Assembly (NCBI GenBank): GCA_022564295.1
Contig: JADFLR010000001.1
Location: 62,001-126,000 of the forward strand
Reading direction: 5' to 3'
Origin: Bacteroidota bacterium
Lineage (GTDB): Bacteria; Bacteroidota; Ignavibacteria; Ignavibacteriales; Ignavibacteriaceae
DNA: 64,000 nucleotides
Shown: one piece after another, positions 2,556 to 52,129 of the stretch
Numbering within the stretch: the stretch's first letter is position 1
Layout of the letters: every line of letters begins with the position of its first letter
Position numbers and translations under genes: made by a program
The notes under the pieces: model-generated
What the model saw: the letters and a program-made list of their open reading frames with translations, nothing else
Told to the model about the DNA's origin: nothing
Databases searched by the model: none

Positions 2556-4064
2556 TTAAAGTCGCAACCCTCTTGGTACAATCACTTTTTCGGAAAGATC
2601 AAACATCCACTGAACTATCAAAGCAAGTAAAGCCGCGGGAACTGCGCCTTCGAGAATCAGGGGAACGCTGTCCAGCCTTATTCCCGTAAGTATTGGCTGT
2701 CCGTATCCTCCTGCTCCTATCAATGCACCAAGCGTAGCAGTGCCCACATTTATAACGGCAGAGGTTTTTATTCCGGCAAGAATTGATCTGGATGCAAGTG
2801 GAAGTTCAATCTTTTTAAGAATCACAAATGATGATAAACCAAGAACAATTGCTGATTCTTTTATACTTGTCGGGATATCTTCCAAACCGGTAAATGTGTT
2901 TCGAACAATTGGAAGCAAGCTATAAAGAAACAACGCAACTATGGCAGGAGAGGAACCAATGCCTAAAAGCGGTATCATAAATACTAACAATGCAAGCGAA
3001 GGGATTGTTTGAATGATTCCTGTTATTCCAATAATGAGTTTCCCAAGTTTTTTATTTTTGTAAGAGGATATTCCAAGAGGGATGGAAACTAAAATTGCTG
3101 CCGATAAAGAGATTAACACAAGATACAAATGCTCTTTTGTATTATGCCATAAACGGCTTAAGAAGGTGCTTTCTACATAATTTGATTCGATCGAAAACTT
3201 GTTTTTAATAAATTGGGCAGCAACCTCCTCTTCGCTTTTACCGTTTATCTTTACCTCCGAATTCATTTTGATCATTAAGGATTCCGGGATGCCGTTCTTT
3301 AATTTATTAATTGCATCAATAACTTTTGGGAAAGTTTTTTCTAAGTCTTTCCGGTAAAGTAATACTGCCTGATAATCTGTAAAATAGCGCAGATCATCTT
3401 TTAACACTTTAAGATTATAGTAATTTATTTCTGCATCGGTTGAGTAGAGATCAATTACATCAATTGAGCTGCTGGCGAGACCGCGATAAGCAATGTCGTG
3501 ATCCATCCCGTTTACATTTGATTGAGGAAGATTGTAAAATTTTTGTAATCCCCGCCAGCCGTCTTTTCTATCCATAAACTCGTTTGTAAAACCAAATTTT
3601 AAATTGGGATGTTTACGCAGATCGGATATATTTTCTATCCCGTAATTTTCCGCTTCTTTGTTTTTCATTCCAATTGCATAAGTGTTATTAAAACCGAGAG
3701 GATAAACAATACCGATTCCGTGTTTTGAAAGTTTATCCTTTAAATTTTTATTTGTAACGTTTTCATCAGCAAGTATCTCCTCGATAATTGTTCCGGTATA
3801 ATCTGGATAAATATCTATTTCACCTTTCAGAAGTGCATTCCATAAAATTCTTGTTCCTCCCAATTCCCTAATATGAATTGAATTTACATTGTTTGAACGT
3901 GCTAGTTGGGTAACAATTTCACTAAGTATTACATTCTCTGTAAATTTTTTAGAGCCGGTCTTAATCGTTTTGTCAGATTGGGTGAATGCTATTGATGATA
4001 AATTAATAAAAACAATCAGCAGCAGAGTTGAAAACCACAACTTATTTTGTTTAATTAATTTCAA
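2556..4064 (-). CDS. Glycine betaine/choline-type ABC importer: substrate-binding protein fused to permease
   Basis: A 502-aa fusion. After a signal-like segment (residues 8-28), residues about 33-290 form an OpuAC/ProX-type binding domain (TGSKKFTENVILSEI, GGTRILWNALLKGEIDIYPDY). Residues about 305-500 form a BPD_transp_1 permease with several spans and an EAA-like loop (ESAIVLGLSS). Fused binding protein-permease subunits are known among OpuC/YehZ-like osmoprotectant importers. Substrate specificity is inferred from family only. The start is a TTG at 4064 overlapping the ATPase gene by 14 bases. No ATG is available, and TTG at 4040 is an alternative. The overlap implies one transcript and coupled translation with the ATPase. 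Confidence 0.88.
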   Translation of the reverse strand: MKLIKQNKLWFSTLLLIVFINLSSIAFTQSDKTIKTGSKKFTENVILSEIVTQLARSNNVNSIHIRELGGTRILWNALLKGEIDIYPDYTGTIIEEILADENVTNKNLKDKLSKHGIGIVYPLGFNNTYAIGMKNKEAENYGIENISDLRKHPNLKFGFTNEFMDRKDGWRGLQKFYNLPQSNVNGMDHDIAYRGLASSSIDVIDLYSTDAEINYYNLKVLKDDLRYFTDYQAVLLYRKDLEKTFPKVIDAINKLKNGIPESLMIKMNSEVKINGKSEEEVAAQFIKNKFSIESNYVESTFLSRLWHNTKEHLYLVLISLSAAILVSIPLGISSYKNKKLGKLIIGITGIIQTIPSLALLVFMIPLLGIGSSPAIVALFLYSLLPIVRNTFTGLEDIPTSIKESAIVLGLSSFVILKKIELPLASRSILAGIKTSAVINVGTATLGALIGAGGYGQPILTGIRLDSVPLILEGAVPAALLALIVQWMFDLSEKVIVPRGLRL

Positions 4065-4791
4065 TTGTGCTTCTCTGCGATTTTATAAATTTAGTTACGA
4101 ATGGTTCTGCAGGGTTGTTAATGAAATCAGTAATTGTTCCTTGCTGAATTAAACTCCCCTCTTTCATTAACAATATTTTATCTCCGAAAAAAACAGCTTC
4201 ATTTAAATCGTGAGTAACAAGAATAACAGTTTTATTGAGTGTTTTAAAAATTTCTTTTAAGTCATTTTGAAGATCAAACCTGATTAAAGGATCGAGTGCA
4301 CCAAGCGGTTCATCAAAAAGAAGAAATTCGGGATTGAGCATAAGTGCACGCATTAAACTTACACGCTGCTTCTGCCCTCCGGAAAGTTCTGCGGGATAAC
4401 GCCCCAACCCATCATTGGGAAAGTTTGTTAACCGGGTGAGTTCATTAATACGTTTAGAAATTTTATCACTATTCCATCCCGTGTAGATTGGCATAAGCGA
4501 TAGATTGTCTCTTGCAGTAAGATGAGGGAATAATCCGCCGTCCTGAATAACATAACCCATTCTTCTTCTTATTGAAGATAAGTTTGAATTGGAAAGCAGT
4601 TCATTATCAACCGTAATTGTTCCGCTGTCCTGCTTCATCAACCCAACTATTAATCTTAGCAGAGTGGATTTGCCGCAGCCGCTCGGACCGATTAAAACAG
4701 TAGTTTTTCCCTTAGTAAAATTAAATGAGAATTCTTTAAGCGCTAAAGAAGAGTTAAAAGATTTAGAGATATTTTTAAGTGAGATTGACAC
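4051..4791 (-). CDS. ABC transporter ATP-binding protein, osmoprotectant type
   Basis: Energises the adjacent fused permease. About 246 aa: Walker A GPSGCGKST, Q-loop VIQDGG, signature LSGGQKQR, Walker B LLFDEP, D-loop GALD and H-loop VTHD are all present. There is no C-terminal CBS domain, unlike many OpuCA proteins. The GTG at 4791 (VSISLKNISKSF) places the start where the family usually begins. An in-frame TTG at 4830 would add 13 unlikely residues and overlap the upstream amylase remnant. The start is 12 bases after that remnant's stop. Confidence 0.88.
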   Translation of the reverse strand: MSISLKNISKSFNSSLALKEFSFNFTKGKTTVLIGPSGCGKSTLLRLIVGLMKQDSGTITVDNELLSNSNLSSIRRRMGYVIQDGGLFPHLTARDNLSLMPIYTGWNSDKISKRINELTRLTNFPNDGLGRYPAELSGGQKQRVSLMRALMLNPEFLLFDEPLGALDPLIRFDLQNDLKEIFKTLNKTVILVTHDLNEAVFFGDKILLMKEGSLIQQGTITDFINNPAEPFVTKFIKSQRSTIEIN

Positions 4792-25990: not shown

Positions 25991-27340
25991 TTATATTTTA
26001 ATTGAGAACGCAAAAACTATCTTATAACCCCTGTAAGAAATTTCTGAAAATGTTTCATCATTAACTGATGAAGTGTTTGAGGGGTCAATTATATTATCTA
26101 AAGATTCTATTTTATTATTTCCGGTGGCATAACCAAGACCAAGTATTAAATCCAGGATATCATATTTTAATGCAACTCCACCAAGAAAATGTAGAATGTT
26201 ATAACCCGACATCGAATATTTTGATAATTGGTCGGGATCCTTTGCAGAATTATTTGTAAAGATCGAAGCGTACAATGACAAGTCTTTGCCTAACTTATGA
26301 TCAACACCCAATCCAAAATTAATAACTGATCGGCGGGATAAAAAATTGGTGTTTGGAATAACCTCACCGGTAGGCACAACTATAACCGGCTGTGTATTCA
26401 GCACTTCGTATGAACTGATTTTTGCAAACCACTCGGCAGAAAAATATAATGAAGTTTTTTCGAAGTGATATGCTGCACCGAAAGCTATTGAGAATGGTGT
26501 CTTAAATTCGGAAGTAAGTCCGTCTTCATCGTTTACAGCAATAAACTGTTCCTCGCCGGCAGAATTTATTTGTGAGATGTTGATGCTTGATTCACCGGTA
26601 TAGTTAAATAGATTTAAGCTTGGTGTTGTTACAGTAAAGCCGAAGGACAATGGTCTGTGATCAAAAATGATTCCTGCTTTCCAGAGAATTTTAAAATTGT
26701 TAAAGTAAGTATCGCTGTATATTATTCTGGTTGCTGAAGTTTGAGGGTCTTCCAGCACCTGGTTGATAATTTGCAATCTCTGGCGATTAGATCTTAAAGT
26801 AACATATTGAGAGATACCAATCCCGACCTTTTCTTTAATTTTACGCCCCCAGGAAAACCCAACCCACGTTTCAACATTATCTGCAAATATAATTCCATCA
26901 TTTGCCCTGATGCCGGATGTACCTGTTTTATTTATGTCTCTGCCGTAGAAATCCGCTTTCACCACATCCCTTACAAGAAACGAAAATGCAATTTGATTTT
27001 TACCAAGCTCATCTAATTGTAATCTGAAGGCTACAATGCTTGGGGCAGCACCGCTTGTATTAGATTCAAGGTCTGGGACGGCTGGTGATTTGCTTGTGAT
27101 ATTAACCTGTGTTATTTGATATGCATCAGTCGAAATTGTAAGAACCTGGTCGGTTGTTAATGCAAGAGTTCCGGGATTGTAAAACGTTGAACTCAAATCG
27201 TGTTTGCTGCCGACAACCAAACCGCCTAAAAGACTTGCCTCCGTTCCGTATTGATTCGTCCAGTAATGTGAATCCTGTGCGTTAATAAACGAACCGGTAA
27301 AGCAAATTATTATTAGTAAAGATTTATAACCACTTTTCAA
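25991..27340 (-). CDS. Outer-membrane protein, FadL/OMPP1-like
   Basis: 449 aa. A signal peptide ending FINAQ is followed by a long barrel-like sequence with Gly/aromatic alternation and an N-terminal S-S-T-F-Y-N-P-G-T-L-A-L segment. That segment resembles the FYNPAGLA motif of FadL-type hydrophobic-compound transporters. It ends in a strand, KIVFAFSIKI. The start is TTG at 27340, supported by GAGG six bases upstream. Substrate unknown. Confidence 0.7.
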   Translation of the reverse strand: MKSGYKSLLIIICFTGSFINAQDSHYWTNQYGTEASLLGGLVVGSKHDLSSTFYNPGTLALTTDQVLTISTDAYQITQVNITSKSPAVPDLESNTSGAAPSIVAFRLQLDELGKNQIAFSFLVRDVVKADFYGRDINKTGTSGIRANDGIIFADNVETWVGFSWGRKIKEKVGIGISQYVTLRSNRQRLQIINQVLEDPQTSATRIIYSDTYFNNFKILWKAGIIFDHRPLSFGFTVTTPSLNLFNYTGESSINISQINSAGEEQFIAVNDEDGLTSEFKTPFSIAFGAAYHFEKTSLYFSAEWFAKISSYEVLNTQPVIVVPTGEVIPNTNFLSRRSVINFGLGVDHKLGKDLSLYASIFTNNSAKDPDQLSKYSMSGYNILHFLGGVALKYDILDLILGLGYATGNNKIESLDNIIDPSNTSSVNDETFSEISYRGYKIVFAFSIKI

Positions 27341-27811
27341 TGAAACCTCGTAATTATCATAAAATTATTTGTTTATTAAAAATAAAAAAACAAAGGCAAA
27401 ATAGCACCTAAGTATGCAAGTTTACCACTATAGTTCAGATGAATAATTACCAATATTCTAAATCTTAAGCACTTATAATAAGCATTGAAGAAATGCGAAA
27501 CCCTGTCGTGTAATTCCACAAATTAAACTGCGAGAGTAATTGAGCAGTTTTAATAAAAAGCAAAATCATTGTTGCTTACCTCTTCTTAATGATTTAATTT
27601 AAACTGAATTTTAATATATTTATTGTTTAGGACTGCTTGAACAATTGCTGTATGGAAGGTTAGTTTATAAGCTCGGTAATTACCTGATTTTTTAATTAGT
27701 TATTATTTCTAATCAAAATGTGAAAGATTATTAAATGGAGGGCGAAATTAAGCTACGAACAGACATTAAAAGTAGAATTACGTAATAAACGAACAAACAA
27801 TTAACTTATAG
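27341..27811. other. Intergenic region before the cassette-like block
   Basis: About 470 bases with no supported ORF. It precedes the first attC-like palindrome. No integron integrase or attI could be identified here. Confidence 0.5.
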
Positions 27812-27851
27812 TTCAGCTATACACAATGCGTATATTGGGACGTTAGCTGAA
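27812..27851 (+). repeat. attC-like imperfect palindrome 1 (short)
   Basis: Outer arms TTCAGCTA (27812-27819) and TAGCTGAA (27844-27851) pair over eight bases, and inner CAAT/ATTG pair around GCGTAT. The right arm contains GTTAGCT, related to the integron core GTTRRRY, 60 bases before a cassette-type gene. This is the weakest of the three sites. Confidence 0.4.
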
Positions 27852-27914
27852 ATAATGCAAATTCTTTTCGCCCCTTTGGGGTAATTCAGGGGTAACAAAT
27901 TTATTTTTACAAGT

Positions 27915-28499
27915 ATGGATACACTCACATTTTTAACAAGTTTTCTCGGCGGCGGTATTCTCGGGGCCCTTATAAACTGGGCCAGAGCAGAACGCTCAGA
28001 AAAAAAAGAACGCGAAATTAATTCCCTAGAAAAACAAATAAGGGAACTTTATGGGCCCCTTTACTACTTTATCTCACAAGCTGAAAAACTTTTTGAGCTT
28101 AATAAAAAATTCCATAATGCATATCAAAAAGAATACATCGACACAGAATACAGCCAAGATGAAGGTACGCGCAAAATATTGGACGAAGAAACGAGCCAAA
28201 CACTTGGAATTGCCAACAAGTACATATCATACGTTCAAAGCAACAATAGCAAAATCAAAGAAGTTTTGGATAAAAGCTACCCATTCATTGATCCAGAAGA
28301 CATAGAAATTTTTCTTATGTTCTTTGAACATCATATCCGGCTTAATACAGAGCGAGATGAAGAAGGAATACTCAATACACCACTGAGGATTTACAAACAT
28401 ATTGGAGACATCTCGTTTCTTCGCCCAGAAGTGATCAAAAGGATTAAGGAAAAGTTTCTCAGCAAAAAAGAACGCCTCGAGAAACTATTAAAAAAATAA
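27915..28499 (+). CDS. Cassette-borne membrane-anchored coiled-coil protein of unknown function
   Basis: 194 aa. An N-terminal membrane segment (FLTSFLGGGILGALINW) is followed by charged helices (RAERSEKKEREINSLEKQI, RELYGPLYYFISQAEKLFEL) and a basic C-terminus. Proteins of this layout are frequent in integron cassettes and islands; no function is known to me. It lies between attC-like sites 1 and 2, in the same direction as the SIR2 gene. The upstream leader contains CCCC-ttt-GGGG, a small hairpin. Confidence 0.65.
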   Translation: MDTLTFLTSFLGGGILGALINWARAERSEKKEREINSLEKQIRELYGPLYYFISQAEKLFELNKKFHNAYQKEYIDTEYSQDEGTRKILDEETSQTLGIANKYISYVQSNNSKIKEVLDKSYPFIDPEDIEIFLMFFEHHIRLNTERDEEGILNTPLRIYKHIGDISFLRPEVIKRIKEKFLSKKERLEKLLKK

Positions 28500-28527
28500 A
28501 TTTGGAACAAAGAATTTACATTACATC

Positions 28528-28647
28528 GGCTAACACAGTATATACGGTTCGGCCTTTACTTTGGAAAAGCCTCTCCAAACTTGTGCGAGGGTACGCCATC
28601 GGCGTATTATACCCCCGCGCAAGTTCGTATATGCTGGAACGTTAGGC
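28528..28647 (+). repeat. attC-like site 2 (best example)
   Basis: The left end GGCTAAC (28528) pairs imperfectly with GTTAGGC (28641-28647), a perfect match to the integron core GTTRRRY. Inside, AGTATATACG (28537) pairs with CGTATATGCT (28626), as L boxes would. The centre is a long variable palindrome (about CTTGTGCGAGGGTA with TACCCCCGCGCAAG). The 120-base length and nested symmetry match attC. The next gene starts nine bases after the core. Confidence 0.7.
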
Positions 28648-28655
28648 ACAATACA

Positions 28656-29810
28656 ATGAAAACGACTTTACTAATTGGATCAGGCGTTTCTTTTTACTCA
28701 GATATACCAGATATATCTTATATAACAAATAACATCTTAACGTCTGATAAAATTGGGAGAGGAACAGATACCAATTATTACTTAGAAGGTTATCTTGGAT
28801 ATAGTATTCAATCATATCTAAATGGATATGTATCAAAGTGCCAAAAGTTAATAAACCATGTCAAACTCAGTATTGACCAATTTTACACTCATATCCAACT
28901 TGAACATCAAACTAACTATGAAGACATTTACTATGTGCTTAGACAAATAGAAGACAGTTATCAACTAGAATATGAAAATCCGTCTACTTTAAAGCTCATA
29001 GAATATTTGCTGGTTGAAATGAATCTTAATAGAGATCATCTTAAGGAATTAATAACTGAATCGACAAGATTTATCGAATGTATAGTATGGCAATCTATTG
29101 ACAAACCATTCTCCAAATTTGACCAGTTTAACATGATTATCGATCTGCGTCAATCCTTACAATTAGAAACCATTTTAAGTTTAAATCACGATCTTGTATT
29201 AGAAAAATGGTTAACAGAAAATTCTATCGCGTTTGACGATGGTTTTCATTTGGATGGTAAAAAATTGCCTGAATGGAAAGGTTTTACGAATGAATCAAAA
29301 AATATAAAACTATGCAAGGTCCATGGTAGTATCGACTGGTTTGAATTCAGAATTACTAAACTTAAAACTTATGATAATTTAGTAAAGGTGCCTGGAAATA
29401 CTTATGTTGAAAGGATTCATGAAATTGATAATTCGTTCACGGCACCCAATTCGAGCCGACCTTCACTACTAATCGGCACCTTCAATAAAATGTGGGGTTA
29501 TTTAAGTGGTATCCATGAGATTATGTATGAAGAATTAAAAAAATCAATAATCAATTCTGACATTATTATCATTTCCGGGTATGGTTTTGGAGATAAAGGT
29601 ATCAATACAAGACTAACTAATTGGTTAGCACGAGAGAATTCGAAAAAAATGATAATTATTAATCCCAATAAGGATTCCTTGATATCAAATTCAAGGGGCA
29701 GTTATAAAATTAACATAATGACAAACCAAACAAAGCATCCTAAAGTCGAATTGATTGAGAAGAAATTTGAAGAAGTAACTTTTGAAGAGATAAAAAGGTA
29801 CTGTGCCTAA
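28656..29810 (+). CDS. Stand-alone SIR2-like domain protein (probable NADase, anti-phage type)
   Basis: 384 aa from the ATG at 28656; an upstream in-frame start would run through attC-like site 2 and is rejected. SIR2_2-type motifs in order: GSGVS (8-12) for NAD binding, S-L-N-H-D (175-179, equivalent to T-x-N-x-D), K-V-H-G-S-I-D-W (221-228, catalytic His), and I-S-G-Y-G-F-G-D-K-G-I-N near 320. No Zn-binding cysteine pairs are visible, which separates it from protein deacetylases. SIR2-like proteins of this class deplete NAD during phage infection in several defence systems; a defence role here is inference. The stop codon TAA lies inside the left core of the next attC-like site (GCCTAAC), as is common in gene cassettes. 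Confidence 0.82.
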   Translation: MKTTLLIGSGVSFYSDIPDISYITNNILTSDKIGRGTDTNYYLEGYLGYSIQSYLNGYVSKCQKLINHVKLSIDQFYTHIQLEHQTNYEDIYYVLRQIEDSYQLEYENPSTLKLIEYLLVEMNLNRDHLKELITESTRFIECIVWQSIDKPFSKFDQFNMIIDLRQSLQLETILSLNHDLVLEKWLTENSIAFDDGFHLDGKKLPEWKGFTNESKNIKLCKVHGSIDWFEFRITKLKTYDNLVKVPGNTYVERIHEIDNSFTAPNSSRPSLLIGTFNKMWGYLSGIHEIMYEELKKSIINSDIIIISGYGFGDKGINTRLTNWLARENSKKMIIINPNKDSLISNSRGSYKINIMTNQTKHPKVELIEKKFEEVTFEEIKRYCA

Positions 29811-29940
29811 CAACGCATCAAACGCTATGGAGGGTTTGTGGTACCTTGACATTTCTATGTTATTAACTAACTTTATTTTGGTCTGCTGACAGTTCGCAGG
29901 TGGAAAGTCCGCCACAGACGTTTATGCAGGGCTGTTGAAA
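29805..29940 (+). repeat. attC-like site 3
   Basis: The left core GCCTAAC (29805-29811) is classical. The stretch 29814-29832 (GCATcAAACG...TGGAGG) pairs with 29909-29927 (CCGCCACAGACGTTTATGC). The right core GTTGAAA (29934-29940) fits GTT-purine-rich. Total length is 136 bases. The SIR2 stop codon is embedded in the left core. Confidence 0.6.
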
Positions 29941-30429: not shown

Positions 30430-30867
30430 ATGCAGAATATGAGTATCAAGAAAATATTATCCGGAATATGGTATACATTCCTTACTATCTGTGTACTTCT
30501 TTTTGTTATTTTCTTTATAAAGGGTATGCTTCAGCCAAAACTCAAAGTAAACGTAACTACACTAAAAAACGGGGACTCTTCTGTCTTTTGGGTTGAAAAT
30601 GAGGAAAAAGTTATAATAGAATTAACGAATGTCGAAGTAAACGGTGACTATACATTAAAGAAATTTCCTTCTGATAAAGATTATAGAAAACTCAACATAC
30701 ATGGTCAGGGCAAGCAATTTATCAAACCGGGTGAAAAAGTCATGTTCTTCACAAAACACTTACACAATTCAGATGGTAAAAAGTTTAATTCCTATAGTCT
30801 GGCATTTACTAAAATAACAGTATGGGCTGAAGTTGATGGCGACCTTCGTTGGTTTACCGGAGAGTGA
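30430..30867 (+). CDS. Single-pass membrane protein of unknown function
   Basis: 145 aa with one N-terminal span (IWYTFLTICVLLFVIFFIKGM) and an extracytoplasmic beta-rich domain (VFWVENEEKVIIELTNVEV, ITVWAEVDGDLRWF). No family was recognised. The start is ATG at 30430; the ATG nine bases later is equally possible. Confidence 0.55.
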   Translation: MQNMSIKKILSGIWYTFLTICVLLFVIFFIKGMLQPKLKVNVTTLKNGDSSVFWVENEEKVIIELTNVEVNGDYTLKKFPSDKDYRKLNIHGQGKQFIKPGEKVMFFTKHLHNSDGKKFNSYSLAFTKITVWAEVDGDLRWFTGE

Positions 30868-51728: not shown

Positions 51729-52129
51729 GAACAATTCAATCCTGTAAGCCGAATTCTGTATTCCGGCAACTGCCGGAGGACAATTATTTATCTAGCCCAA
51801 ATGTTACCATTTGGGTCAAGCGGTCTACCCGGAGACTATCGGAGCGAACAACCCCGCTTCCCAATAATATTAGGAAACAATCTCCCTATTTGACTTTGCT
51901 TCGGGTGTGGTTTACCGTGCCTCCGATGTTACCATCAGAGCGGTGGGCTCTTACCCCGCCTTTTCACCTTTACCCCGAAAAATCGGGGAAGTATATTTTC
52001 TGTGGCACTGGCAGTCATTGTAAGATTTCTCTTACAATTCCCGGGAGTTACCCGGCACCCTGTTCTGTGAAGTTCGGACTTTCCTCTACACCGAAAAACA
52101 GTGCAGCAATTGCCCGGACTGACTTATTC
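51729..52129 (-). ncRNA. rnpB: RNase P RNA (bacterial type A)
   Basis: About 401 nt on the minus strand. The universal core is visible as the 5' segment AGAGGAAAGTCCGAACTTC and the 3' segment ACAGAATTCGGCTTAC. The ends pair to form P1, with GAATAAGTCAGTCC (from 52129) and GGATTGAATTGTTC (to 51729) matching 13 of 14 positions including G-U pairs. It is the catalytic RNA for tRNA 5' maturation. The coordinates follow P1. Confidence 0.95.

Follow-up and report, generated by a model that had tools for sequence, protein, structure and literature searches.

Two genes on the plus strand of an Ignavibacteria genome lie between imperfect palindromes, which raises the question of whether they are integron cassettes and, if so, where they came from. 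The window, that is, the whole stretch of 64,000 nucleotides that was analysed, belongs to a 273 kb contig, and the central palindrome lies 90 kb into that contig. An earlier note had described two plus-strand genes among three integron-type palindromes and proposed an attC cluster lacking an integrase. We identified both genes as described, the second with a SIR2_2 domain, and we consider it highly probable that 27828-29940 holds two tandem same-strand cassettes of integron type, which are of a Patescibacteria type, are likely strays inserted in trans, and are partly decayed. The features of the locus are as follows.

25991-27340, minus strand: flanking gene of outer-membrane type, on the other side of the two genes from the small gene at 30430
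27828..27848, plus strand: site 1, L' and R' (the right half) of a family site; the R' box, GTTAGCT, occupies 27842-27848
27843..28641, plus strand: cassette 1, from TTAGCTG... through the G of R' in site 2
27915..28499, plus strand: cassette 1 gene, 194 aa, hydrophobic N terminus, family unassigned by domain search
28528..28647, plus strand: site 2, complete and attC-like, a member of the Patescibacteria family, between the two genes
28642..29934, plus strand: cassette 2, from TTAGGCACAATAC... to the G of the degenerate site 3 R'
28656..29810, plus strand: cassette 2 gene, 384 aa, SIR2-like domain (PF13289, SIR2_2)
29805..29940, plus strand: site 3, divergent or decayed, beginning inside the end of the SIR2 gene
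30430: flanking small gene, far boundary of the two-gene region

The cassette 1 gene had no relatives among 294 genomes of the window's class, and the nearest PADLOC models to the cassette 2 gene were Aga_SIR2 (Argonaute-associated SIR2). The only Rfam match in the window was a full-length bacterial RNase P class A RNA (51729-52125, minus strand, 283 bits).

The three palindromes turned out to be of unequal quality. Site 2 carries R'' GGCTAAC, L'' at 28536-28546, L' at 28626-28636 and R' GTTAGGC (28641-28647); compared with the RYYYAAC/GTTRRRY cores, R' is exact and R'' has one mismatch, while L'' and L' pair as an inner stem of 11 bp, so the GTTAGGC core and paired inner boxes noticed before were indeed present. 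Folding of the bottom strand, which had been suggested as a check, agreed with site 2, as its DNA folded better than shuffled sequences (z -3.5, 1/200 as good), but not with site 3, which folded no better than its shuffles (z -0.27). The left core of site 3, GCCTAAC (29805-29811), is sound and contains the SIR2 stop codon, as had been pointed out, and its L'' GCATCAAACG pairs with CGTTTATGC; its right core, however, is degenerate (R' GTTGAAA, 29934-29940). The SIR2 start codon lies 8 bases past the site 2 core, not nine as the earlier note had counted. At site 1, CGTATAT..TGGGACGTTAG aligned with CGTATATGCTGGAACGTTAG of site 2, and no left half was recognisable; the surrounding region 27760-27900 folded better than shuffles (z -2.4), with a fold that is not clearly that of the site itself. 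Within the inner hairpin of site 2, TATTATACC at 28604-28613 (bottom strand GGTATAATA) resembles an extended -10 promoter element, and this extended -10-like sequence was found at the same place in several other family sites.

We then related site 2 to sites elsewhere. A pattern of 22 fixed bases taken from site 2 was run over 84,980 genomes, for which we estimated about one match by chance, and it matched five foreign MAG contigs, all with the same architecture. These contigs were labelled Pacearchaeota, archaeon, Patescibacteria, Falkowbacteria and Flavobacteriales, and two of them (L105 and L108) carry an identical site and apparently come from the same assembly. When nine foreign sites were aligned, both stems covaried, with double-sided changes in 17 cells against 6.5 expected (0/500 shuffles). 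A covariance model, R1, was built from these nine foreign sites only, leaving site 2 out, and it detected site 2 at 72.3 bits (E 1.8e-15) as its sole match in the 64 kb, indicating by sequence and predicted fold that site 2 belongs to the same family. Next, cmsearch of 21 loci yielded 112 sites, whose common fold was accompanied by 730 cells altered on both sides against 241 expected (0/500 shuffles). The broader covariance model made from these 112 sites, R2, gave site 2 68.6 bits and matched site 1 weakly (12.0 bits, E 0.16), with the match ending in exact register. Site 3 was missed by both models and site 1 is a half-site, so the window holds only one full site. Several other searches added no sites: the right-half pattern of site 2 matched 22 of the 294 class genomes, close to the reversed-pattern control, and these matches were rejected as chance since on inspection they lay mostly in coding DNA; searches of plasmids and viral contigs gave nothing useful; and no such sites were found around SIR2 relatives at 24-35% identity.

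The family is centred on Patescibacteria, where 46 of 287 genomes carried sites (E <= 1e-4), often in arrays, with 12 sites in one genome. In the arrays, 80 of 84 site-to-site intervals held an ORF of at least 50 aa, and 69 of these ORFs were on the array strand. Their cargo is mixed, including NUDIX, methyltransferases, MFS, Fic, macro domain, RIO kinase and others, and no close copies of the two window cassette genes were found in any array. Relatives of the recombinase of the first array, L122 (47-66% identity), were identified in nine further loci, and in all ten fetched loci the recombinase stood at the array head and pointed outward, away from the cassettes. In 8 of the 10 loci an attI-like sequence followed by a cassette start was present shortly before the start of the recombinase gene, several of them reading AACGAG|TT.

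To place the cassette boundaries, we assumed a unit that opens with the TT of R' and extends to the following R'' and its site, which predicts that R' is complementary to the R'' of the next site. Over 84 adjacent pairs, R' and the next R'' matched at 3.12 of 4 variable positions, and 46 of the 84 were perfect, compared with 1.75 (sd 0.10) for shuffled pairs and 1.77 for the two boxes of a site with each other. By these statistics over 84 cassettes, the predicted crossover is at G|TT. In L122, 3 of 4 site-to-site intervals broke the boundary rule. Complementarity of the ends extended past the R box, with a near-fixed mismatch at positions 10 and 11; among 65 core-matched pairs, at least 7 matches at positions 12-20 were found in 31%, versus 1.5% after shuffling.

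The same rule was found in the window. The ends of cassette 1 (27842-27867, GTTAGCTGAAATAATGCAAATTCTTT, and 28509-28534, GTTAGCCGATGTAATGTAAATTCTTT) are complementary at 22/26 and obey the end rule exactly, including the fixed family mismatch, which falls at positions 10-11 just as in the foreign cassettes. The ends of cassette 2 (28641-28654, GTTAGGCACAATAC, and 29798-29811, GTTAGGCACAGTAC) are complementary at 13/14, with the mismatch at position 11, which matches a variant in L164; because its left end complements the start of the SIR2 cassette in this way, we take site 3 to be genuine at that end. Comparable complementarity was seen in three other end pairs in the 64 kb window, and long palindromes beside genes are common, as would be expected if the locus were a transposon-like element with hairpin ends (of the IS200/IS605 or MITE kind) or a set of terminators or chance palindromes. 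However, the window pairs count, though not rare alone, because they are located exactly where site 2 predicts, and the regular spacing with one site for every gene, the IntI-like recombinase that heads the array divergently, and the rule joining R' to the next R'' are features of integrons and not of transposons. We therefore regard a transposon or chance origin as very improbable.

The ten array-head recombinases are 268-284 aa long and keep the catalytic residues and an IntI-like C terminus with the common motif (I/V)(R/K)SPL. On alignment, the IntI-specific stretches (about 31 + 11 residues) were absent from all ten and present in the IntIs of the window's class. By profile, the closest solved structure was IntI4 (2A3V), followed by archaeal XerA. 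In a maximum-likelihood tree with few outgroups, the Patescibacteria group and IntI were joined against XerC, XerD and other integrases of the window's genome (99/96); the two formed separate groups, the unity of the Patescibacteria group being moderate (86/89) with these few outgroups. In ordinary attC sites the L stem carries extrahelical bases, which IntI is understood to read through its extra domain. Such a base was absent from both the family consensus and site 2, where the L stem is unbulged (median score 11 in the family, 12 in site 2), and in family sites the spacer on the R' side usually exceeds the one on the R'' side by 3 nt.

We next asked what the host itself offers. The earlier note had seen no intI in the window, and we found no integron integrase over the TIGR02249 cut-off there or in the whole genome. 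The host protein nearest to the Patescibacteria-type recombinase was XerD (162.7 bits), and XerC, XerD and the phage-like integrases of the host were rejected as integron integrases. Because the genome has no integron integrase, the earlier description as a cassette cluster without one was right in outline, but the sites belong to the Patescibacteria-centred family and are not ordinary attC. True IntI over the curated cut-off was present in 53 of 294 class genomes, and the left arm of site 3 is rather like the ordinary attC of the class (GCCTAACAACGCATCAAACG). The locus might thus be a decayed cluster of the ordinary IntI integrons common in the class, with only a coincidental likeness to the Patescibacteria family. 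We consider this improbable, since site 2 and the cassette ends fit that family in detail, ordinary sites beside IntI in the class differ from it, and this genome has no IntI.

A second possibility leaves the origin of the cassettes as proposed and changes only the agent: cassettes of Patescibacteria type may have been inserted by an ordinary IntI formerly present in the lineage, with the host as the active party. This is compatible with the first half of our preferred explanation. About 10 of the 23 family members sampled carry IntI, and the class 1 integrase recombines diverse foreign attC sites (PMC9668308). However, no arrays of R1 sites were found in class genomes. Moreover, the family consensus carries no L-stem bulge of the kind that ordinary IntI is understood to contact. 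Altogether, insertion by a former host IntI seems unlikely, though less so than an ordinary class integron. In one relative of the same family (L069, 6078-7085), intI carried an internal stop and had no adjacent cassette array. In two family members a repeated palindrome, AAACTGCACTT...AAGTGCAGTTTG, occurred near intI (L072, 9397-9449; L073, 1523-1579); it was rejected as an attC because it is a different repeat.

The preferred reading, that the two cassettes are strays of Patescibacteria type, also bears on where else such sites occur. R1-type sites were identified in only 13 of 288 genomes of the window's class; in an archaeal phylum, 30 of 211 genomes had them. Most of these genomes held one or two, and the length of some of the contigs concerned (at least 180-370 kb) speaks against mis-binning. 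Elsewhere in the window's own genome, a solitary cassette of the same type with a Yip1-domain gene was observed (L214, C22:93000-100000, about 3666-4400), whose start GTTATCTGAAATTTTGATGG complements its R'' end at 16/20 and whose R' is degenerate; a decayed family site (33 bits with R2) also lies directly 3' of an AAA_15 ATPase (OLD-like) gene (L213, C2:36000-43000, 4255-4340). On a Flavobacteriales MAG contig (L126, 84-915), two full family sites flank one gene and the cassette ends match (GTTATAT / ATATAAC), an example outside Patescibacteria.

Based on these comparisons, we propose the following model. Each cassette would consist of a gene with a single recombination site capable of folding in single-stranded form. 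In the source, an IntI-like recombinase without the IntI-specific segment would lie beside an attI-like point, divergent at the head of the array. This tyrosine recombinase would fold out one strand of the site and join it at the R' G|TT to the attI-like point or to another site, and cassettes would be collected and released, presumably as circles. Other cells may then take up released cassettes, which would insert at a sporadic GTT target or an existing site and later decay. The window would be the landing place of two such strays, inserted in trans and now fixed, with sites 1 and 3 having decayed. The window cassettes were probably exported from this variant type of integron, and cassettes of this type seem to reach other bacteria and archaea on their own, the likely direction of transfer being from Patescibacteria.

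How does this arrangement compare with known systems? As in the CALIN of IntegronFinder, the window has same-strand genes with foldable RYYYAAC / GTTRRRY sites between them in a genome without an integrase, but it has one full site only, whose sequence and inner structure are those of another family. A CALIN is defined by at least two attC sites less than 4 kb apart on the same strand; in the window, site 2 is sound, site 3 is sound at the left end only and site 1 is a half. The Patescibacteria arrays share with canonical IntI integrons (TIGR02249; 2A3V) a divergent tyrosine recombinase heading the array, an attI-like point and a G|TT crossover, but their recombinases have no IntI-specific segment. 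Unlike canonical attC, their sites combine an unbulged L stem with the 3-nt asymmetry beside R', and have two inner hairpins with a conserved CCCA(T/A)ATT; unlike in canonical integrons, pairing of the cassette ends reaches well past the R box. The integrons of archaea surveyed by Ghaly et al. 2022 (PMC9668308) likewise have attC cassettes common to Archaea and Bacteria, mostly in integrase-less clusters, but that survey describes their IntIs as having the IntI-specific domain; the R1 sites in the archaeal phylum sampled here were mostly single, and the Ghaly survey omitted singletons. XerA and archaeal Xer (NF040815) are of similar length and also have no IntI insert, and the L107/L122 recombinase scored 219 bits with NF040815 against a cut-off of 220; the Patescibacteria recombinases, however, head cassette arrays and group with IntI against the host XerC/XerD. 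The IntegronFinder 2.0 survey does not mention Patescibacteria (PMC9024848). In the open literature on integrons in Patescibacteria, CPR and Parcubacteria, a scope outside which preprints and most subscription journals fall, we found no description of such a type, and we provisionally regard it as undescribed.

Taken together, the comparisons favour, by a modest degree over even chances, the broader view that Patescibacteria hold a deep-branching, undescribed class of integrons. Its recombinase would be sister to IntI and would never have gained the IntI-specific domain, its sites would be without the extrahelical bases that this domain reads, and it would represent an intermediate between Xer and IntI; its cassettes would disperse as single units to archaea and larger bacteria, with the window as one of the places reached. 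Because tools that require the IntI domain would miss complete integrons of this kind, integrons are possibly undercounted in Patescibacteria. A branch sister to IntI that has arrays, an attI-like point and foldable sites, with neither the IntI domain nor bulged L stems, would make the origin of integrons from Xer testable. Finally, the scatter of single cassettes suggests that genes may pass by this route out of very small bacteria, which are probably host-dependent, to archaea and free-living bacteria.
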